A stretch of 45,496 nucleotides of DNA from Fibrobacter sp. Lineage in GTDB: Bacteria; Fibrobacterota; Chitinivibrionia; Chitinivibrionales; Chitinispirillaceae. The DNA is taken from positions 1 to 45,496 of the forward strand of contig JAAYEB010000165.1 of the NCBI GenBank assembly GCA_012728995.1, written 5' to 3'. Below, in pieces: positions 13,045-41,160 of this stretch (positions are counted from its first letter, which is position 1; each line of letters begins with the position of its first letter). The notes under the pieces are model-generated. The model saw only the letters and a program-made list of their open reading frames with translations. It was not told the origin of the DNA and ran no database searches. The position numbers and the translations under genes were made by a program.

Positions 13045-14061
13045 TTACAAATTAACAATCCATCCATGCCTGTCTTCGGTTTCTCCATACTGTATACTCT
13101 GGATTTCTTTAAAAAACCGTTTAACTGTTGCACCTGCTTCATGTTCATTCCCGAATGTGAAAGTTCTGTCACGATATTTAATAGAGTAAACCGGGGTAAT
13201 AACAGCAGCAGTACCACAAGCACCTACTTCCACAAAGTTTTCGAGTTCATCAACAGAAATAAGTCTGTTTTCAACTTTCAGGCCAAAATCCCGTGCTATA
13301 TCCTGAATACTTTTATTTGTTATCGAAGGAAGAATCGACGAAGACTGAGGTGTTACATATACATTATCTTTTGTAATGCCAAAAAAATTGGATGTTCCGA
13401 ATTCATCTATATAATGATGCTGAGCAGAATCAAGATAGAGACAAATAGGATATCCCTCATTTTTTCCTTCAATATCACCCAGCATACCTGCAGCATAGTT
13501 CCCGGCTGCCTTTACGTTTCCTACCCCTTGTGGTGCAGCTCTGTCATATTTTTCCTGAACCATGGCTTTTACAGGGTAAAAACCGTTTTTATAATATGGT
13601 CCTACCGGCATACATAAGACTATAAAAGCATACTCCTCTGAAGGAGATATACCGACATGAGGGCTTGTTCCAATAAGAAAAGGCCGAATATACAAACTTG
13701 CACCTGTTCCATATGGTGGAACCCATTCTCTGTTATTTGATACAACTGTTTTTACCGCCTCCAAAAACAGCTCTTCATTTGGCGCCTGCATAACCAGACG
13801 TTGTGCAGTATTAATCATCCGACGGGCATTATCCAATGGTCGAAAAATACCGATTGTTCCGTCTTTGCGGCTGAAAGCCTTAAGCCCTTCAAAAGCAGCC
13901 TGTCCATAATGAAAAGCTGTAGCAGCAATATGAAACGGCATTACCGGGTCTTTATAGATATTTAGTTTTCCCCAAATTCCGTTACTATAATCTGCTCTTA
14001 CAAACGAATCTGTTTGCATATACTTGAAACCAAGATTCTTCCAGTCAACATTTTGTGCCAT
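13045..14061 (-). CDS. ilvE: Branched-chain amino acid aminotransferase
   Basis: The 338-residue fold-type IV PLP enzyme carries out the last step of Val, Leu and Ile synthesis, transamination with glutamate. The PLP lysine is K184 in GNVKAAGNYAAG. Other family blocks are FHYGQAAFEGLKAF, SLYIRPFLIG, YIDEFGTSNFFG and GTAAVITPV. I chose the ATG at 14061 because AGGA lies 9 nt upstream of it; an ATG three codons earlier abuts that AGGA directly. It is the last gene of the operon, 28 bp past cimA. Confidence 0.94.
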   Translation of the reverse strand: MAQNVDWKNLGFKYMQTDSFVRADYSNGIWGKLNIYKDPVMPFHIAATAFHYGQAAFEGLKAFSRKDGTIGIFRPLDNARRMINTAQRLVMQAPNEELFLEAVKTVVSNNREWVPPYGTGASLYIRPFLIGTSPHVGISPSEEYAFIVLCMPVGPYYKNGFYPVKAMVQEKYDRAAPQGVGNVKAAGNYAAGMLGDIEGKNEGYPICLYLDSAQHHYIDEFGTSNFFGITKDNVYVTPQSSSILPSITNKSIQDIARDFGLKVENRLISVDELENFVEVGACGTAAVITPVYSIKYRDRTFTFGNEHEAGATVKRFFKEIQSIQYGETEDRHGWIVNL

Positions 14062-14089
14062 GGCACGCATTCCTGTTAAATGTTAAAAA

Positions 14090-15706
14090 TTATGAATGTA
14101 TGATATCTTTTTTTTCTGTTAATTGTTCTTTCTGCTGAATATAATCATTCATCAGTTTATATTTCAAGCTATCAATCAAGGCAAGCCATGAAGCTTCAAT
14201 AATATTGGTTGAGACGCCGACAGTCCCCCATCTGCTTACACCATCTGAAGACTCAATCAGGACTCTGACTTTTGCCTCAGTGCCATCTCTGCCATCAAGT
14301 ACACGAACCTTGAAATCTTCCAGCCTAACACTTTTAAGTGACGGGTAAAATTTTACAAGTGCTTTTCTCAGCGCATTATCAAGGGCATTAACAGGCCCGT
14401 CTCCCTCCGCAGCAGTATGTACAAACTGATTACCCTCCTGTATTTTGATAGTTGCTTCTGAAAACACTTCCCCATTTTCCCGTTTTTCTTCTATAACACG
14501 AAAGCCTTTGATCTTAAAAGGCTCTTTAAATTGTCCCAGAATCTTGCGGGCAATTAACTCAAAAGAACCTTCTGCCGCTTCAAACTGATATCCACAGCTT
14601 TCAAGCTCCTTTATTTTCATCAATAAAGCCTGAACTCCCGGATCTTTTTTATTAAACCCGGTACCAATTGAAGAAAGCTTTTCCAGTATCGTACTTGATC
14701 CGGCCTGATCCGAAACAACAAACTGCCTCTGGTTTCCTACTGATTCCGGAGAAACATGTTCAAATGATTCTCTCGTTTTTCTAACGCCATCAGCATGGGC
14801 TCCCGCTTTATGAGAAAAAGCTGCCTCGCCTACGTAAGGTAAACGGATATTAGGTATTACATTTGCAATCTCGGCAACAAAAACAGACGTACTCGTAATC
14901 ATTTTCAATTGCTGCTGTGAAAGAAGCTGTATCCCTTTTTTTATCTGCAAATTAGGAATTATTGTACAGAGATTCGCATTTCCGCATCGTTCGCCCAACC
15001 CGTTAATGGTTCCCTGCACCTGCATGGCACCTTCAATTACAGCTATACATGAATTTGCATCCGCACAACCGCAATCGTTGTGAGTATGTATCCCTAAAGG
15101 AGCCGAAACTTTTTCTTTAACTTCTTTGAATATTTTTATAAATCCATCCGGGAGCATACCCCCGTTTGTATCACACAAAACAATATAATCCGCCCCTGCA
15201 TCCTGTGCTGCTATCAGAGTTTTAACAGCATACTGCGAGTCAGCTTTATAACCGTCAAAAAAGTGCTCTGCATCAAAGATTACTTCTTCCATGTTCTTTT
15301 TGAGAAATTGAACCGAATCGTATATCATTGCAAGGTTCTCTTCAAGACTGGTATTGATAACTTTTTCCACATGAAGATTCCAGCTTTTACCGAAAATCGT
15401 AGCTACAGGAGTACCTGTTGATATCAGCATTTCAAGAAACGGATCCTGTGACACTTTATTCCCCGGACGTCTTGTACTGCCAAATGCTGCAATTTTGGCT
15501 CTTGGCCCCATAAGTTTTACTTCTTTGTAAAACCCTGTATCAACAGTATTGGTAGGATTAGGCCATCCGCCCTCAATATAATGAATACCCAGCTCATCAA
15601 GTTTTTCAACTATACGAAGTTTATCACTCAATGATAAACTGATTCCAAGCGCCTGATTTCCGTCTCTTAAAGTTGTATCGTAAAGAGTAACACCATTTTT
15701 TGACAT
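14090..15706 (-). CDS. cimA: (R)-citramalate synthase
   Basis: The 538-residue protein has a DRE-TIM catalytic barrel (LYDTTLRDGNQ at residue 8, the GIHTHNDCGCADANS metal motif, NGLGERCGNANLCTIIPNLQ) and a C-terminal LeuA allosteric domain. The GERCGNANL...PNLQ wording and FGKSWNLHV are typical of CimA rather than LeuA. CimA condenses pyruvate with acetyl-CoA, starting isoleucine synthesis without threonine. A separate leuA lies two genes upstream, which supports this split. TAAGG precedes the ATG. The C-terminal domain is probably the site of isoleucine feedback. Confidence 0.92.
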   Translation of the reverse strand: MSKNGVTLYDTTLRDGNQALGISLSLSDKLRIVEKLDELGIHYIEGGWPNPTNTVDTGFYKEVKLMGPRAKIAAFGSTRRPGNKVSQDPFLEMLISTGTPVATIFGKSWNLHVEKVINTSLEENLAMIYDSVQFLKKNMEEVIFDAEHFFDGYKADSQYAVKTLIAAQDAGADYIVLCDTNGGMLPDGFIKIFKEVKEKVSAPLGIHTHNDCGCADANSCIAVIEGAMQVQGTINGLGERCGNANLCTIIPNLQIKKGIQLLSQQQLKMITSTSVFVAEIANVIPNIRLPYVGEAAFSHKAGAHADGVRKTRESFEHVSPESVGNQRQFVVSDQAGSSTILEKLSSIGTGFNKKDPGVQALLMKIKELESCGYQFEAAEGSFELIARKILGQFKEPFKIKGFRVIEEKRENGEVFSEATIKIQEGNQFVHTAAEGDGPVNALDNALRKALVKFYPSLKSVRLEDFKVRVLDGRDGTEAKVRVLIESSDGVSRWGTVGVSTNIIEASWLALIDSLKYKLMNDYIQQKEQLTEKKDIIHS

Positions 15707-15752: not shown

Positions 15753-16817
15753 TTATGCAAGTAAAGAGGCTACAAAATCTCCTACTTCTGTTGTCCCCAT
15801 ACCCATTCTTCCTGCAGACATACTTTTTATCTTTCCCGATGCAAGGGCCTGATGAACAGCATTGTCTACTGCTGCTGCTGCATCTGATTCTCCAAGCACA
15901 TCTAGCATCATGCCTCCGGCACAAATAGCTGCAAGCGGATTAATGACATTCTGACCTGTATATTTTGGTGCACTGCCGCCTATAGGCTCAAACATCGAAA
16001 CGCCATCCGGATTAACATTGCCACCTGCGGCAATACCCATTCCACCCTGGATCATTGCCCCAAGATCAGTAATAATATCGCCAAACAGATTTTCTGTAAC
16101 AATAACATCATAGAATTCCGGACTTTTTACCATCCACATTGTACAGGCATCTACATGGTTATAATCCTGTTTGATCTCCGGATAATCAGTATCCCCTACC
16201 TCTTTATGTGTTCTGACCCACAGGTCTCCTGTATGAGTAAGTACATTGCATTTGTGAACCAGTGTCAAAGTATTCTTTCTGTTTCTTTTACGTGTATAAT
16301 CGTAGGCATAACGGATACAACGTTCAACAACAGGGCGCGAATAAACCATAAGCTGTGTGGCGATCTCCTGTTGAGTACCAACCATGCTTGCCCCACCCAT
16401 ACCAGTATAAATACCTCCGGTATTTTCTCTTATTACAACAAAATCAATATCCTGAGGTTTTTTATCTTTCAATGGAGTATCCACATTCGGATAAAGTTTG
16501 ACAGGGCGCAAATTTATGTATTGATCAAGTGCAAAACGCAATTTAAGAAGGATTCCAAGCTCCAGAACGCCCGGTTTAACATCAGGATGTCCTATTGCCC
16601 CCAGAAATATGGAATCAAATTTCCCAAGTTCATCAATTGCAGAATCCGGAAGAGTTTCGCCAGTACGCTTATATCGTTCTCCTCCGAAATCGAAAGACTC
16701 AAAATTAAATTTAATTCCATACCGCGGTGCTAATGCTTCCAGTACCTTGATACCTTCTTTTAAAACTTCCGGCCCTGTACCGTCACCAGGTACTAATGCG
16801 ATATTAAAAGCTTTCAT
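15753..16817 (-). CDS. leuB: 3-isopropylmalate dehydrogenase
   Basis: This 354-residue member of the isocitrate/isopropylmalate dehydrogenase family starts [16 protein letters not shown] and carries [30 protein letters not shown] (catalytic Lys), [13 protein letters not shown] and [13 protein letters not shown]. It oxidises 3-isopropylmalate, or 3-methylmalate in the citramalate route, with NAD+. AAAGGATTAACAA precedes the ATG. It sits between leuA and cimA and probably serves both pathways. The family includes other beta-decarboxylating dehydrogenases, but the operon makes LeuB the best call. Confidence 0.92.
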
Positions 16818-16877: not shown

Positions 16878-18440
16878 TTACACACTTGATGGTTTCTGTT
16901 TTCTCAGAACATCTCTTTTTTTATTAAACTTTTTAATACGTGTTATTTTATTTATAATATTCATGTACGCCAGTGCTGAGGCTTCCACAATATCGGTACT
17001 GGTGCCATTTCCGGTAAAAATGCCTTCGGGAGCTTTGGCAACGATTGTCACACGCCCCTGGGCCTCCCGTCCTTCAGTTATTGCATCAAGATGGAAAGAT
17101 TCAACCTTTAGTTTACATCCTACGATTCTGTCAATTGCCTTTGTCGTAGCATCAACAGCCCCGTCACCACACGCTGCTTCCTGAAACAGTTTTCCGTCAG
17201 CTTTGATCATTACTGTCGCAGTAGGAATAGTACCCTTCCCGCTTGAAACATTCAAATACTGCAATGCATATGTATCTGCAAGATCATCATCAGTTTTTGA
17301 TTCCATCAAGGCAATCAGATCGTCATCGTAAATAGCACCTTTTTTGTCTGCAAGCAGCTTGAAACGTTTATAAAAAGATTCAAGATCAATTTCTTCTTCA
17401 TCATACCCCAGATTCAACAATCGGGATTTAACCATATGACTTCCTGATCTGCTTGTCAGGTTCATACGATTCTCCTTAAGCCCTATGGACTGTGGAGTCA
17501 TGATTTCATAAGTTTTCCTGGCTTTAAGCACGCCATCCTGATGAATTCCTGAAGAGTGGGAAAAAGCATTGGCACCTACAATAGCCTTGTTTGGTTGAAC
17601 CGGCATATTACACAAATCCCGGATCAGTTTACTTGTTCTTTGTATTTCACGGGTGTTAACATCTGTTGAAACCTTAAAAAGATCTTTACGAACCCTTAAT
17701 GCCATAACAATCTCTTCAAGTGCTGCATTCCCTGCCCTTTCACCTATTCCATTGACAGTGCACTCCACCTGCCTGGCACCATGTGAAACAGCAGTTAATG
17801 AATTGGCAGTAGCCATACCCAAATCATTATGACAATGAACAGATATAATGGCTTTATCAATATTTGGAACTTTGTCAAACAGGGTATCAATTATCAAAGC
17901 AAAATGCTCAGGGGATGTGTATCCAACTGTATCGGGGATGTTTACAGTAGTTGCGCCACACGAGATGGCAGTCTCGACAACTTTACATAAAAAATCAACT
18001 CCGGTGCGTCCCGCATCTTCAGCAGAAAACTCGACATCATCACAATGTTTTCGAGCAAGGCGAACACCATTTTGGACCAGATCAATGATCTGCTCTTCAG
18101 TTTTCCTCAGTTTTTTCTCGGTATGTATAGTTGAAGTACCAACGAATGTATGGATTCGCGGTCGTTTCGAGAACTTTATTGCTTTGGCACAGGCAATTAT
18201 ATCTTTTTCTACAATCCTTGCCAGACCACAAATAACCGGCCCTGTAATTTCTTTGGCGATCATTGAAACAGCTTCAAAATCCCCAGGTGAAGATACAGGA
18301 AAACCAGCTTCAATCACATCAACTTTAAGACGAGCAAGCTGTCGTGCAATTCTTAGCTTTTGTTCAGCCGAAAGGCTTGACATGAGCGCCTGTTCACCAT
18401 CCCGCAATGTTGTATCAAAAATTACTACTTTGTTTTTCAT
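16878..18440 (-). CDS. leuA: 2-isopropylmalate synthase
   Basis: This 520-residue enzyme has FDTTLRDGEQ at residues 8-17, VIEAGFPVSSPGDFEAV, SVHCHNDLGMATANSL (metal histidines) and NGIGERAGNAALEEIVMAL, then a C-terminal regulatory domain of the leucine-binding type. It condenses 2-ketoisovalerate with acetyl-CoA, the committed step to leucine. I start it at the ATG at 18440: the open frame continues 55 codons further upstream, but that extension reads through a perfect palindrome into ilvC and has no family similarity. No strong ribosome site is visible, so coupling or leaderless re-initiation after ilvC is possible. Confidence 0.94.
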   Translation of the reverse strand: MKNKVVIFDTTLRDGEQALMSSLSAEQKLRIARQLARLKVDVIEAGFPVSSPGDFEAVSMIAKEITGPVICGLARIVEKDIIACAKAIKFSKRPRIHTFVGTSTIHTEKKLRKTEEQIIDLVQNGVRLARKHCDDVEFSAEDAGRTGVDFLCKVVETAISCGATTVNIPDTVGYTSPEHFALIIDTLFDKVPNIDKAIISVHCHNDLGMATANSLTAVSHGARQVECTVNGIGERAGNAALEEIVMALRVRKDLFKVSTDVNTREIQRTSKLIRDLCNMPVQPNKAIVGANAFSHSSGIHQDGVLKARKTYEIMTPQSIGLKENRMNLTSRSGSHMVKSRLLNLGYDEEEIDLESFYKRFKLLADKKGAIYDDDLIALMESKTDDDLADTYALQYLNVSSGKGTIPTATVMIKADGKLFQEAACGDGAVDATTKAIDRIVGCKLKVESFHLDAITEGREAQGRVTIVAKAPEGIFTGNGTSTDIVEASALAYMNIINKITRIKKFNKKRDVLRKQKPSSV

Positions 18441-18453
18441 GCTTTTTTGAAAA

Positions 18454-18479
18454 GACTCTCTGCCAGATGGCAGAGAGTC
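18454..18479 (-). promoter_or_regulatory. Perfect palindrome in the ilvC-leuA gap
   Basis: GACTCTCTGCCA (18454-18465) and TGGCAGAGAGTC (18468-18479) are exact inverse copies with only two bases between them. On the minus strand the hairpin is followed by TTTTC and lies 13 nt upstream of the leuA ATG. It could be a leaky terminator or an RNA-processing or stability element that sets leuA level relative to ilvC, or a protein operator. Confidence 0.7.
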
Positions 18480-18489
18480 AGAAATATTA

Positions 18490-19590
18490 TTAATTGTTTT
18501 TACGCCCAGTAACACCTTTGGTAGCTTTTGTGATTTCTTTTGCTTTCTGTTTTGGACGAAGTTTTCGAACAGCTTTACCGGCCTGCCACATTTCAGAATC
18601 ACCAAGAGTGTTTAATTCTTTATCAAGTTTTGCTTTATAATCTTTGCGGCCACATGATGAAATTACTCTTTTTGTTTCTTTACCAGCCTTGACTGATTTG
18701 TATAATTCATTGAAAACAGGAAGCGTTGCCCTTTTAAATTTTGGTTTCCAGTCCAAAGCACCGCGTTGAGCAGTTGCAGAACAATTAGAGTACATCCAGT
18801 CCATTCCGTTTTCATCAACCAGACGAATAAGACTTTGTGTAAGTTCCTCAACGGTTTCATTGAATGCTTCACTTGGAGAGTGCCCGTTTTTACGTAAAAC
18901 ATCATATTGAGCTTCCATAATCCCGGCCAGTGCTCCCATTAATACTCCACGCTCGCCTGTTAAATCACTAAACACTTCCTTTTCGAAAGTAGTAGGAAAC
19001 AAATATCCGGAACCTATTCCAATTCCAAGTGCAAGGCATCTTTCTTCTGCTCTGCCGGTTGCATCCTGATAAACTGCATAACTGGAATTGATTCCAGCTC
19101 CATTAAGGAAATTACGACGTACAGAAGTACCACTTCCTTTTGGAGCAACCATGATTACATCAACATTTTCAGGTGCAACAACACGGGTCTGATCTTTATA
19201 TACAATAGAGAATCCGTGTGAAAAATAGAGTGCATCACCCTCATTCAAGTTTTTTTTGATCTTCGGCCATATTGACATCTGAGCAGCATCAGAAACCAGC
19301 ATTTGAATGATTGTTCCCTTTTCCGCTGCTTCCTCGATATCAAACAAGGTTTCACCTGGTACCCATCCGTCTTTGCGTGCCCTGTCCCAATCCTTTGTAA
19401 ATGATTTTGCCTGGCCTATAATAACATTGAACCCGTTGTCTTTTAAATTAAGTGCCTGAGCAGGCCCCTGCACACCATACCCAATAATTGCGATGACCTC
19501 TTTCTTAAGTATCTTGCGTGCCTTGGCAAGGCTGAATTCTTTACGAGTAACAACTTCTTCCTGTACACCACCGAAATCAATGATAGCCAT
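18490..19590 (-). CDS. ilvC: Ketol-acid reductoisomerase
   Basis: This 366-residue enzyme has the NADPH-binding start VIAIIGYGVQGPAQALNLKDNG, the MVAPKGSGTSVRRNF block, the metal-binding EVFSDLTGERGVLMGALAGI and ETVEELTQSLI, and the substrate-side YSNCSATAQRGALDW. It isomerises and reduces acetolactate and acetohydroxybutyrate, serving Val, Leu and Ile. The length and the GPAQALNLKDNG wording place it between the short class I and long class II forms. A basic tail (KQKAKEITKATKGVTGRKNN) is extra. AGAAGGAGCC precedes the ATG. Confidence 0.95.
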   Translation of the reverse strand: MAIIDFGGVQEEVVTRKEFSLAKARKILKKEVIAIIGYGVQGPAQALNLKDNGFNVIIGQAKSFTKDWDRARKDGWVPGETLFDIEEAAEKGTIIQMLVSDAAQMSIWPKIKKNLNEGDALYFSHGFSIVYKDQTRVVAPENVDVIMVAPKGSGTSVRRNFLNGAGINSSYAVYQDATGRAEERCLALGIGIGSGYLFPTTFEKEVFSDLTGERGVLMGALAGIMEAQYDVLRKNGHSPSEAFNETVEELTQSLIRLVDENGMDWMYSNCSATAQRGALDWKPKFKRATLPVFNELYKSVKAGKETKRVISSCGRKDYKAKLDKELNTLGDSEMWQAGKAVRKLRPKQKAKEITKATKGVTGRKNN

Positions 19591-19666: not shown

Positions 19667-20149
19667 CTATTTTTTCGGCTTGGTAATTGCAATAGTTCCC
19701 GATCTGACGAGTTCTTTAATTCCATAAGGTTTAACCATAAGAATGAAATCTTCAATTTCCTGCCGATTTCCGGTTAACTCAAATGTAACTGAGGTATGGG
19801 TAACCGCTGCGATTCGTGCTTTGAAAATATTTCCCAACTCAATAATCTCATGACGATTATTTTTTGAAGATTCGACCCTTAACAATAAAACTTCCCGCTG
19901 AATAAAAGGATCATCCAGAAAATCTATAACCTTGATAACATCGATAAGCCTGTTAAGCTGCTTTGTAATTTGTTCAAGAATCGATTCTTCACCATCCACC
20001 ACAATAGTCATTCTGGAAATCGCAGAGTCTTCAGTTTCTGCAACTGTAAGACTTGATATATTATATCCCCTGCTGGAAAATAATCCTGCTACCCTGGAAA
20101 GAGCACCGCTATTGTTTTCAACCAACACCGAAATAGTATGAATACTCAT
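19667..20149 (-). CDS. ilvH: Acetolactate synthase small (regulatory) subunit
   Basis: The 160-residue protein has an N-terminal ACT domain (HTISVLVENNSGALSRVAGLFSSRGYNISSLTV) and a C-terminal ALS_ss domain, the standard IlvH layout. It binds the large subunit, raises its activity and gives valine feedback inhibition. Its ATG shares one base with the ilvB stop (TAATG), and GGAGGG lies just upstream inside ilvB, so the two subunits are translationally coupled. Confidence 0.95.
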   Translation of the reverse strand: MSIHTISVLVENNSGALSRVAGLFSSRGYNISSLTVAETEDSAISRMTIVVDGEESILEQITKQLNRLIDVIKVIDFLDDPFIQREVLLLRVESSKNNRHEIIELGNIFKARIAAVTHTSVTFELTGNRQEIEDFILMVKPYGIKELVRSGTIAITKPKK

Positions 20150-21873
20150 TAACCCTCCAGAATCTCATCAAGTGGTTTACCTGCAGGAACCATTGGAAAC
20201 ACATTCTCTTCTGGAGAAACAATAAATTCCATAACAGCAGGCCCTTTAACAGCAAGTCCTTTTTTTAATACAGACACGATTTCGTCGGACTTTTCAGCCC
20301 TGAATGCCGCAACATTATAGCTTGTTGCAAGAGTAATAAAATCAGGAATATATTTTGACGAAAAGTTTCCGGAACCTGCGTTTTGGGCTCCATTATAATC
20401 TCCTAACAGACATGTAGCACTATATCTTCTATCGTAAAACAGATCCTGCCACTGACGAACCATACCGAGGTAATAATTGTTCAATATTAATATTTTTACT
20501 GGAATCTGATTTATAGAAAGAGTTGCAAGCTCCTGAATATTCATCTGTATAGAACCATCACCGGCTATATCCACGACAACTGAATCGGGAAAAGCCATTG
20601 CTGCCCCCATTGCTGCAGGCATACCGTACCCCATTGTTCCCAGTCCGCCAGAAGTTAAAAGGGTTCTGGGCTTTTTATATTTGTAATACTGGGCTGCCCA
20701 CATCTGATTCTGGCCTACTTCAGTAGCTATTATCGCTTCTCCTGCCGTTTCTTTATACAATGCCTCGATTACAGCTTGAGGCTTAATCTCTTTTTCCGAT
20801 TTAATGTATGAAAAAAGGGCATCCCCTTTCCATTTCATTACCTGTTCATTCCATGAATCGGGATCACGTTTTTTAACAATTTTAATTAATGAAGAAAGAA
20901 TGTTTTTGGCATCACCAACAACAGGAATGTCAACCTTAATAATTTTTGAAATAGCTGCCGGATCAATATCCATATGAATAATGCGTGCATTTGGTGCAAA
21001 TTTTGCTACATACCCTGTAACTCGATCATCAAACCTGGCTCCTATTGAGATAATTAAATCGCACTCCTGAAGAGCATAATTGGCAGCTTTTGCTCCATGC
21101 ATGCCAGGCATTCCTATAAAAAGATCATGGTCACCAGGAAATGCACCCAATCCCATTAAAGATGTTGTTACAGGAATATTTGTTGTTTTTGCGAATTCAA
21201 GCAATTCTTCATTAGCTCCGGAAAGTATTATACCACCGCCGGCAAACACAACTGGTTTTTTTGAAGCTTCAATCGCTTCAACTGCACGTTTAATCTGCCT
21301 GAAATTGCCATTGATATTTGGTTTATAACTTCTGATAGATACAGTTTGCGGATACTGATAGTTCTCAAGTTCAGCCCGTGAAACATCAACCGGAATATCC
21401 ACCAAAACCGGTCCAGGCCTTCCTGTTTTTGCTATATGAAAAGCTTTTTTAAGTACACCCGGTAATTCAGAAACAGATTTTACCAAAAAATTATGTTTCG
21501 TAATAGGGCGACTTATTCCAACAATGTCAGCCTCCTGAAAAGCATCTGTACCAAGTAATGGTGAGGCAACCTGCCCGGTTATTGCAACTATAGGGATTGA
21601 ATCAAGATATGCGGTAGCAATCCCTGTCATCAGATTCGTAGCACCCGGACCTGAAGTTGCCAGACAAACCCCGACCTTTCCAGTAGCCCGTGCATAACCA
21701 TCTGCAGCATGCGCAGCAGCCTGTTCATGACGTGTAAGTATGAACTTTATCTCTTTTGTATCATAGAGTACGTCAAATATAGGTATAACAACCCCACCAG
21801 GATATCCAAATAAGACTTCAACATTCTCTTGAATGAGGGCGTCAATAATTATTTGTGCTCCCGTTTTTTTCAA
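20149..21873 (-). CDS. ilvB: Acetolactate synthase large (catalytic) subunit
   Basis: This 574-residue thiamin-diphosphate enzyme has the catalytic Glu in FILTRHEQAAAHAADGYAR, GPGATNLMTGIATAYLDSIP, the FAD/central domain IGARFDDRVTGYVAKFAPNA, and the TPP/Mg motif GDGSIQMNIQELATL...LNN. It makes acetolactate from pyruvate and acetohydroxybutyrate from 2-ketobutyrate. It is the first structural gene of the operon, directly behind an attenuator and leader peptide, so its transcription is probably set by charged Ile/Leu/Val tRNA levels. Confidence 0.96.
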   Translation of the reverse strand: MKKTGAQIIIDALIQENVEVLFGYPGGVVIPIFDVLYDTKEIKFILTRHEQAAAHAADGYARATGKVGVCLATSGPGATNLMTGIATAYLDSIPIVAITGQVASPLLGTDAFQEADIVGISRPITKHNFLVKSVSELPGVLKKAFHIAKTGRPGPVLVDIPVDVSRAELENYQYPQTVSIRSYKPNINGNFRQIKRAVEAIEASKKPVVFAGGGIILSGANEELLEFAKTTNIPVTTSLMGLGAFPGDHDLFIGMPGMHGAKAANYALQECDLIISIGARFDDRVTGYVAKFAPNARIIHMDIDPAAISKIIKVDIPVVGDAKNILSSLIKIVKKRDPDSWNEQVMKWKGDALFSYIKSEKEIKPQAVIEALYKETAGEAIIATEVGQNQMWAAQYYKYKKPRTLLTSGGLGTMGYGMPAAMGAAMAFPDSVVVDIAGDGSIQMNIQELATLSINQIPVKILILNNYYLGMVRQWQDLFYDRRYSATCLLGDYNGAQNAGSGNFSSKYIPDFITLATSYNVAAFRAEKSDEIVSVLKKGLAVKGPAVMEFIVSPEENVFPMVPAGKPLDEILEG

Positions 21874-21981
21874 ATAAGCCTCCCTGTAATCCGGTAAAAA
21901 CAGATAACCGGAAATATAAAACAGCTGTGTAAAATACGACCTTTTTCACGATTAATCAAGGAATTATCGTTTTTGTAACAG

Positions 21982-22015
21982 AAAAAGCCCGTTCCCCTTC
22001 AGGGAAACGGGCTTT
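21982..22015 (-). terminator. Attenuator terminator of the ilv operon (3:4 hairpin)
   Basis: On the minus strand AAAGCCCGTTTCCC (22015-22002) pairs over all 14 positions (one G-U) with GGGGAACGGGCTTT (21997-21984) around a TGAA loop, and the transcript then continues with T residues (21986-21982). It lies between the leader peptide and ilvB. The 5' half of the stem can instead pair with the end of the leader-peptide coding region, so termination would be conditional. Confidence 0.88.
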
Positions 22016-22130
22016 AAAATCAGTCTTTTGCTTTTATCAGAAAACCCGTTTCCCCCGCACCAAAAGAATAATTCCAATTATAACAGGAATACAAATGTTT
22101 TCGGTGACTGCTAAAAAAATGGGTTTTCTG
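22002..22130 (-). promoter_or_regulatory. Competing RNA pairings of the ilv attenuator (segments 1, 2, 3)
   Basis: Segment 1, CAGAAAACCC (22130-22121), is the exact inverse of GGGTTTTCTG (22047-22038) in segment 2. Segment 2 also contains GGGAAACGGG (22054-22045), the exact inverse of CCCGTTTCCC (22011-22002) in segment 3; adding TTTT/AAAG extends this helix to 14 pairs. So 1:2 and 3:4 can coexist, while 2:3 (antiterminator) excludes both. Segment 2 covers leader codons 28-33 and the stop. A ribosome finishing the peptide would cover it and allow termination; one stalled at the Ile-rich codons 15-24 would leave it free for antitermination. Confidence 0.85.
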
Positions 22131-22138
22131 TTATTCAT
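22037..22138 (-). CDS. ilvL: ilv operon leader peptide (33 residues)
   Basis: The short frame runs from ATG at 22138 to TGA at 22037-22039. Residues 15-27 read ICIPVIIGIILLV, so 10 of 13 are Ile, Leu or Val, followed by RGKRVF. Ile7, Leu9 and Val11 add further control codons near segment 1. Peptides of this kind precede ilv operons in enterobacteria and act by ribosome stalling, not as products. Position, composition and the overlapping hairpins agree. No good ribosome site precedes the ATG (TTTTCAATATT), and no convincing -35/-10 pair was found in the 53 bp up to the next gene, so the promoter may be unusual or lie further upstream. Confidence 0.85.
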   Translation of the reverse strand: MNNRKPIFLAVTENICIPVIIGIILLVRGKRVF

Positions 22139-22191
22139 AATATTGAAAATTAGTTAATATTCTTACCAAGATACAAGTAAATTTTGAAAAT

Positions 22192-22386
22192 TCATGATTT
22201 TTTAATACCCAGACACTCTTCTCTCCACATACAATCAATCTGATCACAATTTCCATTCGCAGTTTTGAAACATGGAAAATTTCCTTCCGTCTTCTGAATA
22301 GCAATTATCAGATCATCTTTTTTCATTTTTGATCCGTCGATTCCCAGTGCTTTTGCTTTTTTTCTGATTCCGGCAACTGCAATCAT
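22192..22386 (-). CDS. Small SAP/Rho-N-like protein with four conserved-looking cysteines
   Basis: The 64-residue protein has an N-terminal helix-loop-helix of SAP or Rho-N type (IRKKAKALGIDGSKMKKDDL), then IQKTEGNFPCFKT and a CX7CX4CX5C pattern ending in CMWREEC. I recall similar small proteins in deltaproteobacteria and relatives; no function is known to me. The SAP-like half suggests nucleic-acid binding, and the cysteines could bind a metal. The ATG at 22386 is supported by AGAAGGAGTTAAT; an upstream alternative start lacks a ribosome site. It lies in the same orientation as the ilv leader, 53 bp before it. Confidence 0.75.
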   Translation of the reverse strand: MIAVAGIRKKAKALGIDGSKMKKDDLIIAIQKTEGNFPCFKTANGNCDQIDCMWREECLGIKKS

Positions 22387-36490: not shown

Positions 36491-37672
36491 ATGGTTAGGC
36501 AAACACTGGCGATTATCACGGATTCATACTGGCCTGCAAAAGGCGGTATCGAACAAACAGTACAAATACTTGCTAAAAACCTAAAAAACCATTTTAACGT
36601 TTATATTGTAACACACTGTATTCCAAAAAAATCAACATTATTCAGCAAGTACTCAACTATCAAGGGAGAATGCCCCTGCAATGATCCATACGATACAAAT
36701 ATTTTCCATCTGAAAGCTTCTCCAATTCAAAGGTTGATTCTGCTGCCACTTTTGATATGGAATATTCCACCCGGAAGACGATTTAAGTCTGCTCAACTTT
36801 TTGATTTCCTGTTTATCTTCTATAAAGCTGCTTATAAACGGAAACTGGAAAAATTAGTTGATGAGTGCTCTATCATACACTGCTTTTCCACAAATTATCC
36901 GGCACGATGCATTTCTGAAATATGTCTTCAAAAAGGGATATCTTTTATTCATTCACCATATATACATTTCGGTAAATGGGGTGATTCACCAGCCCAATTA
37001 CAGACTTATTGTTATGCTGATGCAGTAGTATGTCCCACAGAATCTTTTAAAAACAGATTCCTCTCCTGTAATCATACAGAAAAAACCAGACTGGTTGTAA
37101 TTCCACCCATTATCCCGGAACAATCGAAACCAACTATCTCGGAACCACCAGTTCCACAAAGATTCATTCTTTTCCTGGGAAGACGGGAAGCTCATAAAGG
37201 CCTGGCAATGCTTCTTGTAGCTTTTGCAGGAATTGAAACATCTGTTAAACTGGTTATAGCAGGCCCAGGAGAACCTATTAAAATACGCAACGATTCTATA
37301 ATTGATTTGGGAGAGATTGATGAAAATATCAAATACTGGCTTTTATCCAGTTGTGAATTTATATGTGTACCATCGCATGATGAAACATTCGGTATTGTTT
37401 TTGCCGAAGCCATGTGTTACGGTAAACCTGTTGTTGCTCTTGATGTTTCACCAATAAATGAAATAGTCCAAAATGGCAAATCGGGCCTCCTGATATCACC
37501 GGATAATACTGATGATTTACGGAATGCGCTTGACAAACTTCTTACTGACCATAAACTGAGAATACACATGGGGGAAACAGCATTACAAACATATAAATCA
37601 TGTTTTGAAACCCGAAAAATTCTCAATAAGTATATTTTCCTTTATAAGTCACTTCTCCCCGACTCCACTTGA
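36491..37672 (+). CDS. Family 4 glycosyltransferase (GT-B fold)
   Basis: The 393-residue protein has the GT4 N-terminal loop TDSYWPAKGGIEQTVQILAKNL, the mid-domain start FILFLGRREAHKGLAMLL and the donor-binding region FGIVFAEAMCYGKPVVALDVSPINEIV with the EX7E pattern. Such enzymes move a sugar from a nucleotide or lipid donor onto glycolipid or polysaccharide acceptors; the sugar is not identifiable. I start at the ATG at 36491 because CAGGGAACAT stands before it and the fold begins there; an in-frame ATG 23 codons upstream lacks a ribosome site. Its tail overlaps the convergent selB by 24 bp. Confidence 0.9.
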   Translation: MVRQTLAIITDSYWPAKGGIEQTVQILAKNLKNHFNVYIVTHCIPKKSTLFSKYSTIKGECPCNDPYDTNIFHLKASPIQRLILLPLLIWNIPPGRRFKSAQLFDFLFIFYKAAYKRKLEKLVDECSIIHCFSTNYPARCISEICLQKGISFIHSPYIHFGKWGDSPAQLQTYCYADAVVCPTESFKNRFLSCNHTEKTRLVVIPPIIPEQSKPTISEPPVPQRFILFLGRREAHKGLAMLLVAFAGIETSVKLVIAGPGEPIKIRNDSIIDLGEIDENIKYWLLSSCEFICVPSHDETFGIVFAEAMCYGKPVVALDVSPINEIVQNGKSGLLISPDNTDDLRNALDKLLTDHKLRIHMGETALQTYKSCFETRKILNKYIFLYKSLLPDST

Positions 37673-39604
37673 CTGTGATCGGCCTTTTTCAGTCAACACT
37701 CTGAAATCTCCTCTACGCTCTGTTATTCCTTCACTATCAAATATTGCAAACAGATTAAGACAGATTTTTCTGTTTCCACCTATAAGATCCCTGAAACCCG
37801 CAACTGTAATTCCATCTTTCCTGTTACCAAGTTCACGCAGTAACATTTTTCGCGCATTATCAACTATAGCTGAATAAATGTAGTTACCTTCAACATGATA
37901 TACTGTTCCCCTGGAAACCATAAATTTCAGTATCTGATTCAACATTTTGCGATCTATTGCATTGTGCAAGGCATAAGTTTCAAGATCCTTCATTACCGGC
38001 ACACGCATATTGCTTTCGTATAAATATTTCTCTACCACCTGTATCCTGGCATCGAATTCACCCTTCTTAGCCGCATCATGACTTTCGAGCGCCCAGGTAT
38101 GTTTTACCTTTTTAAGTTTTTTCTGTGCAACAAGCTCATCAAGAATACAATGCAGAATTTCTGGCGATTCTGAATCTGAACGAAATCCCAGCATTCCCCT
38201 TAGCTCATCAACACTCCTTCCGTGTTCATTAAGTGCATTCTTCTGATGAAAAGCCGAAATATTTTCCAAAATTTTCCTGGTCAGATTTTGATAATGATTT
38301 TTACTTATATAAAATTTCAGATTACCCGAAACAAACACCATTATATCCAAGTCGATATCAGACCTTACACGTTCAACCTCTTTTATCGAAACATTTAAAG
38401 TTTCACTTAGAGCCCTGTCAGAAATTCCAAGAAAATGCTTACGGATTTCGGCAGAAACCAGATCTGCGAAATTACCTTGTGACAATCGATACAGATTTTT
38501 TATCAGTTCTTCGGGTCGTCTTCTATGATGAAGTGGCAATGGATCGATTATCTCACCACCACCAAGGGTTAAATCCCCTGAAGTGGATCGAATTATAAAA
38601 TGATCACCGCTCTGAACTGCGATTGCTGATGGCAGATGAATTTGAACCAGCTCTTCACTACCGCTTCTCAATATATTATTACCTAAAAGATGTATACGTA
38701 CCTGAGCCTCATATGTGCCAGTAAGAAAAATTACATTCGACCATAAATTCAGTACCTTACCATGATCAAAAAGCCTCAACCTGGCATCAAGCAATTTGGT
38801 CTGCCTTAACTTATGATCTGAAAGAAGCATCCCCCTGGCAAACTCATTTTTTGACAATCCGGATATGTTTACAGATGCCCTGTCTCCCGCAACAACGCTA
38901 TCTACCTCCTGCCCATATCTTTCAATTCTCTTTACCCGAATCTCTCTTTCACCAGGTAAAATATAAAGCTTCGAACCTGTACTAATTTTGCCACCAAGCA
39001 CAGATCCTGTAACTATCGTTCCAAAACCTGCAACGCTAAAAATCCTGTCTATATACATACGGAATACTTCGCCGACAGAACGCTGCCGAAGAGTTGATGA
39101 CAATCTGAAGATTTCATTTTTCAAGGTATCTATTCCCTCGCCGGTTTTTGAAGACACCTTTACAATAGAGCTGTTTTCAAGAAACGAACCCTTTACAAGT
39201 TCCTGTACTTCAGAAACAACTGTTTCAACAAGTTCAGATTCTGCCAAGTCAATTCTGGTTAATACAACGATTCCACCACTGATACCAAGCATCTGCATAA
39301 TCGAGAGATGTTCCCGTGTTTGAGGCATGACACTGCTGTCAGCAGCTACAACAAGTAATGCCATATCAATTCCGCTTGCACCCGAAACCATTGTGTGAAC
39401 AAAATCATGGTGACCAGGTACATCAACGATACCTATTCTATCACCTGATGGCATTTCAAGACTGGCAAATCCAAGATTTATTGTTATGCCACGTCTTTTT
39501 TCTTCTTTATGAGTGTCACAATCTATACCTGCTATTTTTTTTACCAGAGCGGTCTTGCCATGATCAATATGACCGGCTGTACCCAAAATCAGGTGCCTGC
39601 TCAT
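37649..39604 (-). CDS. selB: Selenocysteine-specific elongation factor SelB
   Basis: This 651-residue protein has an EF-Tu-like GTPase (GHIDHGKT at 11-18, RRGITINLGFA, DVPGHHDFVHTM, TRIDL), EF-Tu domains II and III, the SelB-specific domain IV and C-terminal winged-helix repeats that bind the SECIS hairpin in mRNA. It delivers selenocysteyl-tRNA to UGA codons. Its ATG lies inside the end of selA (41-bp overlap) with AGGAGAAGCAA upstream, so translation is coupled to selA. Confidence 0.96.
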   Translation of the reverse strand: MSRHLILGTAGHIDHGKTALVKKIAGIDCDTHKEEKRRGITINLGFASLEMPSGDRIGIVDVPGHHDFVHTMVSGASGIDMALLVVAADSSVMPQTREHLSIMQMLGISGGIVVLTRIDLAESELVETVVSEVQELVKGSFLENSSIVKVSSKTGEGIDTLKNEIFRLSSTLRQRSVGEVFRMYIDRIFSVAGFGTIVTGSVLGGKISTGSKLYILPGEREIRVKRIERYGQEVDSVVAGDRASVNISGLSKNEFARGMLLSDHKLRQTKLLDARLRLFDHGKVLNLWSNVIFLTGTYEAQVRIHLLGNNILRSGSEELVQIHLPSAIAVQSGDHFIIRSTSGDLTLGGGEIIDPLPLHHRRRPEELIKNLYRLSQGNFADLVSAEIRKHFLGISDRALSETLNVSIKEVERVRSDIDLDIMVFVSGNLKFYISKNHYQNLTRKILENISAFHQKNALNEHGRSVDELRGMLGFRSDSESPEILHCILDELVAQKKLKKVKHTWALESHDAAKKGEFDARIQVVEKYLYESNMRVPVMKDLETYALHNAIDRKMLNQILKFMVSRGTVYHVEGNYIYSAIVDNARKMLLRELGNRKDGITVAGFRDLIGGNRKICLNLFAIFDSEGITERRGDFRVLTEKGRSQSSGVGEK

Positions 39605-41018
39605 TTGCTTCTCCTATACAATCTGCCACTGCTGATGCGGTCTCTTCGATTTCTTTCTCCTCTAAAGCAAACATATCAAACAAAACCCTGCCTTCACGGA
39701 GAATACCAAGTACCGGTTTTTTTCTCTGAAGCAAACTGTGGAATATTTTTTCAGAAAACGCCTGTCGTTCTTTGACTTTTTCAGATGGTGGAATAAGCAT
39801 GACTGCCTCACTTGGAAGTTTAAGCTCAGGTAAAGTTCCACCACCACAGAATCCGAAACTGTTTACTATTTTTGATCTGACTCCCCTGTCGGACAGTTTT
39901 TTTACAAGAGTATCAGCCATATCTTTCCGTTTTTCAGGTTTTCTCTCTAAAAAGTGAAATAATGGATTCTTATTTTTAAGATTTTCTTCTGATAAATAGT
40001 GCCTGCATGCGCTTTCCAGAACTGCAATTGTAAGCTTCCCGACTCTCAAAGCACGCATAAGTGGCGCTTTTGAAAGTTCATCTGTAAAACTCCTGGCCCC
40101 AACAATAATGCCAGCCTGAGATCCTCCCAGAAGTTTATCTCCCGAAAACATCACCAGATCAGCACCATCCTTAACAGCACTTCGAACATCCGGTTCTTTT
40201 TCAAATCCCGGTATGGAAGATTTTCTTATAAGACCAGATCCAATATCATAAAAAAACGGAAGATCGCGTGAATGGGCCAGTATGGAAAGATCTTTCACCG
40301 AAACTTCTTCAGTAAATCCCTGTATCGTATAATTAGATTTATGTGCTTTAAATATTGCAGCTGTCTGGGAAGTGATCGCCTTTTCATAATCCGAAAGCTT
40401 TGTGCGGTTAGTAGTCCCCACTTCAACCATTTTTGCACCAGATGCAGCCATTATCTCAGGTATTCTGAATGCCCCTCCGATCTCTATCAGTTCTCCTCTT
40501 GAAATTATAACCTCTTTGTTACGGGCAAGTGTATTAAGCGCAAGTATGATACCTGCAGCGTTATTATTGACTACAACAGCTCCCGACGCGCCACTGAGAT
40601 AGCACAGTAGTTCCGAAATATGCTTTACTCGATGACCACGTTTAGCAGCTTTCAAATCAAATTCCAGATTTGAATAACCTTTTAAAACTGGCACTATCTC
40701 CGATATTAAATCATCACCAAGAGGAGCTCGACCAAGATTCGTATGAAGAATGACACCTGTTGCATTAATTACAGGTCTCAGAGATGTTTCAGAAACTGCA
40801 TGAACAATTTCTGAAGCACGACCGGCTATGGAATCAGGTGAGATTTTTGCACTGTCAAAACTGTTTCTGTTTCTCATTTGATCAATAACGCTGCGAACAG
40901 CATAAGTTACAACCGGCTTGCCATATTGTTCAATCAGCCTTGAACATGTTTCTGTATTTAATACACGATCTACACCAGGCAACTGACGAAAACGTTTGTT
41001 TGACAATTCAGAATCCAT
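39564..41018 (-). CDS. selA: L-seryl-tRNA(Sec) selenium transferase SelA
   Basis: This 484-residue PLP enzyme converts seryl-tRNA(Sec) to selenocysteyl-tRNA(Sec) using selenophosphate. Family blocks include the N-terminal RQLPGVDRVL tRNA-binding segment, INATGVILHTNLGRAPL, VVNNNAAGIILALNTLA, ISRGELIEIGGAFRIPEIM, FFYDIGSGL and the PLP lysine in FSGDKLLGGSQAGII. It lies directly behind tRNA-Sec and overlaps selB. No ribosome site is evident before the ATG. selD, needed for selenophosphate, is not in the window. Confidence 0.96.
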   Translation of the reverse strand: MDSELSNKRFRQLPGVDRVLNTETCSRLIEQYGKPVVTYAVRSVIDQMRNRNSFDSAKISPDSIAGRASEIVHAVSETSLRPVINATGVILHTNLGRAPLGDDLISEIVPVLKGYSNLEFDLKAAKRGHRVKHISELLCYLSGASGAVVVNNNAAGIILALNTLARNKEVIISRGELIEIGGAFRIPEIMAASGAKMVEVGTTNRTKLSDYEKAITSQTAAIFKAHKSNYTIQGFTEEVSVKDLSILAHSRDLPFFYDIGSGLIRKSSIPGFEKEPDVRSAVKDGADLVMFSGDKLLGGSQAGIIVGARSFTDELSKAPLMRALRVGKLTIAVLESACRHYLSEENLKNKNPLFHFLERKPEKRKDMADTLVKKLSDRGVRSKIVNSFGFCGGGTLPELKLPSEAVMLIPPSEKVKERQAFSEKIFHSLLQRKKPVLGILREGRVLFDMFALEEKEIEETASAVADCIGEANEQAPDFGYSRSY

Positions 41019-41066
41019 TATTTGATTTGTTATAAAGTTTTAAAGTGTGGAAACCAGCATTTAGTA

Positions 41067-41160
41067 TCAGAGAGAGCAGGAATCGAACCTGCCACAAACG
41101 GTATTATCCGCCCGTTACTGGTTTTGAAGACCAGTTGGACCACCAGATCCTTCCTCTCTA
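41067..41160 (-). tRNA. selC: tRNA-Sec (anticodon TCA)
   Basis: The minus-strand transcript has an anticodon arm ACTGGT-CTTCAAA-ACCAGT with TCA at 41125-41127 (6-bp stem, as in tRNA-Sec). It also has a long variable arm (AACGG/CCGTT) and a T arm GCAGG-TTCGATT-CCTGC. The acceptor pairs AGAGAGG with TCTCTCT, plus a possible U-G pair at the end, so the exact ends are uncertain by one or two bases. CCA is not encoded. It lies just upstream of selA-selB in the same direction, which confirms the identity. Confidence 0.93.

Follow-up and report, generated by a model that had tools for sequence, protein, structure and literature searches.

A ribosome-mediated transcription attenuator that senses charged Ile, Val, and Leu tRNAs very probably controls the ilvBHC-leuAB-cimA-ilvE operon of this Fibrobacter sp. 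The whole layout of such an element lies upstream of ilvB (minus strand, 22138-21984) in the window, i.e., the complete 45,496-nucleotide stretch of DNA that was analyzed. Within the order (Chitinispirillia, Fibrobacterota; Chitinispirillia is a class of Fibrobacterota), 35 genomes yielded an ilvB, and 33 of these carry the same layout ahead of the gene. The mechanism is the classic one; the element is a well-conserved new example of it and not a new mechanism.

The leader peptide frame (MNNRKPIFLAVTENICIPVIIGIILLVRGKRVF and a stop codon, 22037-22138; this and all leader, operon, and promoter features below are on the minus strand) spans 33 codons and has homologous frames in 33 loci. Its residues 15-27 comprise six Ile, two Leu, and two Val, marking a control block (22058-22096) in which 10 of 13 codons encode Ile, Leu, or Val (ILV); over the entire frame, 14 of 33 residues are ILV in the window, as compared with 9-17 across the 33 loci. 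Segment 1 (CAGAAAACCC, codons 3-6, 22121-22130) forms an exact 10-bp pairing with GGGTTTTCTG at the end of the frame, which is lengthened by bulged pairs in the computed fold. Segment 2 (GGGGAAACGGGTTT, 22042-22055), read as the last codons of the frame, is the 5' arm of an antiterminator and pairs with segment 3 (22001-22015) over 14 bp (-23.0 kcal/mol). Segment 3 serves as the 3' arm of the antiterminator and also as the 5' arm of an intrinsic terminator (22015-21984; 14 bp, loop of 4, T-rich tail, -24 kcal/mol) sitting between the leader frame and the first structural gene, with segment 4 and the T-rich tail at 21979-21997. Every element named in an earlier, sequence-only reading of this DNA, namely the frame, the terminator, and the 2:3 and 1:2 pairings, was recovered in its place on the minus strand. 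The full-length leader RNA folds as 1:2 plus 3:4, and the whole-leader fold is more stable than its dinucleotide shuffles (z = -5.1; 0 of 200 shuffles equally stable). Because this fold beats shuffles and the layout recurs before ilvB in 33 homologous loci, the arrangement is not a product of chance.

Conservation was assessed by seeking the ilvB protein in 61 genomes (within the order it was found in 35 of 40) and inspecting the upstream regions of ilvB within the order and beyond. At 33 loci within the order, the end of an ILV-rich frame of 23-38 codons coincides with, or slightly precedes, a segment that can pair with the 5' arm of a terminator. The rows of the resulting 33-row alignment are loci picked for possessing the layout, and its controls leave some relatedness in. 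For the 2:3 helix, 86.5% of cells are paired and 10 of 13 pairs show changes on both sides, with a covariation score of 0.314 versus 0.227 in shuffles (0 of 500 as high) and at most 62% of cells paired when the helix is slid by one column; for the 3:4 helix, 92.1% of cells are paired and both-side changes occur at 9 of 14 pairs. The compensatory changes in both helices are well above the shuffles, which leave relatedness in, and the slid controls. Alignment with relatives had been proposed as the check on the sequence-only reading; once run, it found the frame and its ILV codons conserved in the 33 loci and compensatory changes in 2:3 and 3:4. Additionally, segment 2 is read in different frames (RGKRVF in the window vs. 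RETGF in most relatives); therefore, it is the RNA pairing and not the peptide tail that is conserved.

The layout appears to be concentrated in one clade. As support independent of the alignment, a scan across phyla found it at 3 of 80 ilvB loci (L032, L033, and L034), all in or beside the clade, and at none of the 80 reverse-strand controls of ilvB loci; the cut-off of -9 was strict, with E. coli ilvL falling just short at -8.9, and weaker leaders outside the clade may have been missed. L032 and L034 are members of the order, whereas L033 (contig JAQICX010000220.1) is labelled Kiritimatiellae and its IlvB is sister to those of the order, making transfer or mislabelling possible. The regions directly before ilvB showed no such layout at the loci read elsewhere in the phylum (L117-L126, L136-L139) or at L112 and L114, from two genomes inside the order. 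An RNA model (R1) recovers its own 33 source ilvB sites by construction and detected no ilvB site beyond them; below about 45 bits its hits are mostly generic terminators, and the weak hits in the window's own genome come without a convincing leader.

The position of the control codons was examined with a footprint model, in which the ribosome keeps unpaired a stretch that begins 17 nt upstream of the first base of the A-site codon and ends 12 nt downstream of it, on a transcript whose 3' end is that of segment 3. The 2:3 pairing is permitted at almost all A-site positions within the ILV run, with exceptions in L008, L014, and L027; in the window this extends to about the end of the control block. 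It drops at, or one to two codons after, the end of the run. With the ribosome at the stop codon 2:3 is low, the blocking being weak in L031, L113, L004, and L024. Of the last ten permissive codons, ILV codons make up 70%, against 9% of the codons after these and 39% of those before (0 of 2000 permutations as high), and across the 33 loci the ILV run ends approximately one ribosome footprint before segment 2. E. coli ilvL, run as a control, gave a similar, weaker drop of 2:3 at its V/I run. In the model, the control codons are thereby placed such that a stalled ribosome would free segment 2 and a terminating ribosome would cover it.

From the layout, its conservation, the covariation of 2:3 and 3:4, and this geometry, we infer stalling, termination, and regulation in vivo as follows. 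RNA polymerase would probably start at the leader ATG or no more than a few bases from it, and a ribosome would load on the leaderless AUG and trail the polymerase. Under a shortage of Ile, Val, or Leu tRNA, the ribosome would slow on the ILV run with its footprint ending just before segment 2, which would pair with segment 3 ahead of the synthesis of segment 4; no terminator would form and the operon would be transcribed. When all three charged tRNAs are plentiful, the ribosome would reach the stop codon and cover segment 2, leaving segments 3 and 4 to pair and transcription to end near 21980.

The role of segment 1 is less clear-cut. The 1:2 duplex is better than shuffles at p<0.05 in 17 of 33 loci (Fisher combined p about 4e-13, with loci that are not independent). 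The sequence-only reading had regarded the position of segment 1 upstream of the main Ile block as odd, since a ribosome stalled there would not mask it; the upstream position is real, but segment 1 needs no masking because, when the modelled ribosome occupies the ILV run, 2:3 wins over 1:2. Without a ribosome, the fold to the end of segment 3 that contains 2:3 reaches -34.0 vs. -28.6 for 1:2 alone, and 2:3 is favoured at equilibrium until segment 4 is made. Protection by 1:2 therefore hinges on folding kinetics, and the calculation suggests that an untranslated leader might read through. Of the trp- and ilv-type 1:2/2:3/3:4 logic originally proposed, the 2:3 and 3:4 parts are borne out by covariation, while a protector role of 1:2 is unproven given the preference for 2:3 before segment 4.

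The start of the leader message bears on how the ribosome gets there. The absence of a good ribosome site, already remarked on in the sequence-only reading, was confirmed (best Shine-Dalgarno hexamer match 2 of 6) and is explained if, as sequence comparison suggests, the leader mRNA is probably leaderless. In 21 of 33 loci, the best promoter has a -10 box whose end lies 6-9 nt upstream of the leader ATG, against about 4 expected if randomly placed over the scanned stretch; all 21 fall in the window's family and family f2. Within the window's family this spacing is seen in 19 of 22 loci, and in most of them it is accompanied by a -35 box at 16-18 nt. The putative promoter of the window, P1 (TTGTAT, 18 nt, TAATTT; 22147-22176), ends 8 nt before the ATG and does not outscore its shuffles (157 of 300), and the leaderless assignment of the window itself would thus rest on homology of position, its own promoter being weak. 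In other families of the order, the -10 box lies 12-23 nt upstream of the ATG and several have purine-rich sites before the ATG; families within the order thus appear to differ in leaderless vs. Shine-Dalgarno initiation of the same leader. This pattern would also suit a leader translated from a normal 5' UTR via an unrecognised ribosome site, and hence not leaderless, although we consider that improbable in view of the near-uniform spacing in the window's family. Leaderless ilv operon leaders have been documented in Corynebacterium (PMC11857589) and Streptomyces (PMC8079986).

A further question is how much of ilv expression passes through the attenuator. Downstream, each matched to a curated family, lie ilvB (acetolactate synthase large subunit, 20149-21873, TIGR00118; TTG start, GGGAGG at 21884-21879), ilvH/ilvN (small subunit, 19667-20149, TIGR00119), ilvC (18490-19590, TIGR00465), leuA (16878-18605, TIGR00973), leuB (15753-16817, NF002898 above cut-off), cimA (citramalate synthase, 14090-15706, TIGR00977), and ilvE (branched-chain aminotransferase, 13045-14070, TIGR01123). 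The mechanical leuA frame from TTG overlaps ilvC and its family match starts at about residue 56, suggesting that the true start is probably downstream. Between the terminator and ilvB lies a conserved promoter-like element, P2 (CTTGATT, 16 nt, GTATTTT; 21931-21960), and upstream a promoter with an 11/12 match (22480-22452) precedes a small gene directly upstream of the leader (22192-22386), with no terminator between that gene and the leader. The gene encodes a 64-residue Rho_N-like protein (Rho N-terminal domain match sub-threshold, 22.5 bits vs. a cut-off of 24.9), homologs of which occur upstream of ilvB in L006, L007, L011, and L022. The idea that P2 represents the general promoter type of this genome (4.97 Mb, 486 contigs) was dropped: its exact sequence occurs in the genome in the window copy only, and there was one control hit.

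Judged by sequence, both elements could supply unattenuated or untranslated transcripts, and attenuation may govern only part of ilv expression; the original claim of control over the whole ilvB-H-C-leuA-B-cimA-ilvE unit stands as to the attenuator and is too strong as to "whole". The attenuator could even be real and minor here, with most ilv mRNA starting at P2 (near 21925) or reaching the operon by readthrough from the 22480 promoter. A P2-like element with promoter spacing is present in 22 of 33 loci, the leader on the readthrough transcript would be without a ribosome site, and the weakness of P1 in the window points the same way; P2 scores, however, are not above shuffles when taken one by one, several relatives have no P2, and the leader, pairing, and ILV run of the window are as well kept as in relatives with a strong P1. 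We therefore regard a minor weight as fairly unlikely. Much less credible still is a hairpin that attenuates without ribosome control, the ILV frame being incidental or control being exerted by a protein or small molecule (riboswitch, T-box). There is precedent for caution in Streptomyces, where the role of ilvB leader codons is disputed: the S. coelicolor ilvB region resembled a classical attenuator, and leader codon changes reportedly had no effect (PMC1262725). Against this reading, segment 2 covaries with segment 3, the ILV run keeps its distance of about one footprint from segment 2 across the 33 loci, and Rfam profiles at gathering and low thresholds detected no riboswitch, T-box, or leader-family member at the site; the best sub-threshold match, Phe_leader RF01859 (26 bits vs. 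a gathering score of 55), is not a member. Ribosome-mediated attenuation remains the preferred explanation.

Other leaders were sought in the order and the phylum. Outside the order and in the same phylum, G041 (L245) carries a similar leader (MKYRIHSLVSLITVVLIVPQCRGARG) and terminator before an ilvD-ilvB pair. Scanning upstream of hisG and trpE in the order turned up no leader rich in His or Trp and followed by a terminator. The ILV criterion of that scan proved too strict, accepting 0 of 30 known ilvB leaders, and its ilvD negative was discarded; a rescan upstream of ilvD gave one poor hit in 30. Before a second ilvB/ilvN pair, G000:C315 (L002, L144) has two leader frames rich in ILV/Val in tandem, both with a terminator and a complementary segment of their own after them, and leaders of second acetolactate synthases were also observed in G007 (two, L134), G004, G002, and G014 (one each), some with long Val runs. 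At L248 (G052:C9:8700-10300), a gene resembling a DMT-type transporter is preceded by a leader-like frame that contains two Trp codons and by a strong terminator. Elsewhere in the window, a fluoride riboswitch (RF01734, 374-436, plus strand, 56.9 bits) lies before a cation/proton antiporter-like frame (528-1721), and a tRNA-Sec (41160-41068) is adjoined by frames resembling selA and selB (37649-41160, minus strand).

Combined, these results bring Fibrobacterota into the range of leader-peptide attenuation for branched-chain amino acid genes. The suggestion that this instance may be undescribed held up, as no report of leader-peptide attenuation in Fibrobacter or Fibrobacterota was found in the literature searched and the element is not in Rfam; the 33-locus alignment could serve to build an Rfam-type model. 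If families do differ in leaderless vs. Shine-Dalgarno starts, the effect of leaderless starts on an attenuator becomes a question that can be asked. Tentatively, and with somewhat less than even confidence, leaderless attenuation could be a general strategy of Fibrobacterota, in which families switch the form of the start and conserve the RNA switch, extending to ilvD-led operons and to the tandem Val-rich leaders of the second acetolactate synthase.

The sequence-only reading had placed the best-described ilv leaders in gammaproteobacteria; such leaders are indeed known there, but ilvB leaders have also been described in Actinobacteria (PMC1262725, PMC11857589, PMC8079986). The E. coli ilvL (ilvGMEDA) and ivbL (ilvBN) leaders share with the present one an ILV-rich peptide of about 32 codons, competing antiterminator and terminator, and a V/I codon run about one footprint before segment 2 (ivbL was located in sequence, and ilvL was the one run in the footprint model), whereas the phylum is distant, no sequence relation is shown, the gene order differs, and the leader here is probably leaderless. 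The Rfam families Phe_leader (RF01859), Trp_leader (RF00513), and Thr_leader (RF00506) are the same kind of element, but this site is a member of none of them. The Streptomyces lividans IlvL (PMC8079986) and Sinorhizobium meliloti trpL (PMC7298713) leaders resemble the putative leader here in being leaderless before an amino acid operon, and differ in their short peptides and phyla. The Corynebacterium glutamicum ilvBNC leader (IlvL, a three-hairpin attenuator) likewise has ilvB as its first gene and differs in its 15-codon peptide, hairpins, and phylum; its transcript begins a single nucleotide away from the start codon of the leader, its H1 hairpin has been argued to shield that codon, and its attenuation is translation-dependent through valine codons (PMC11857589).
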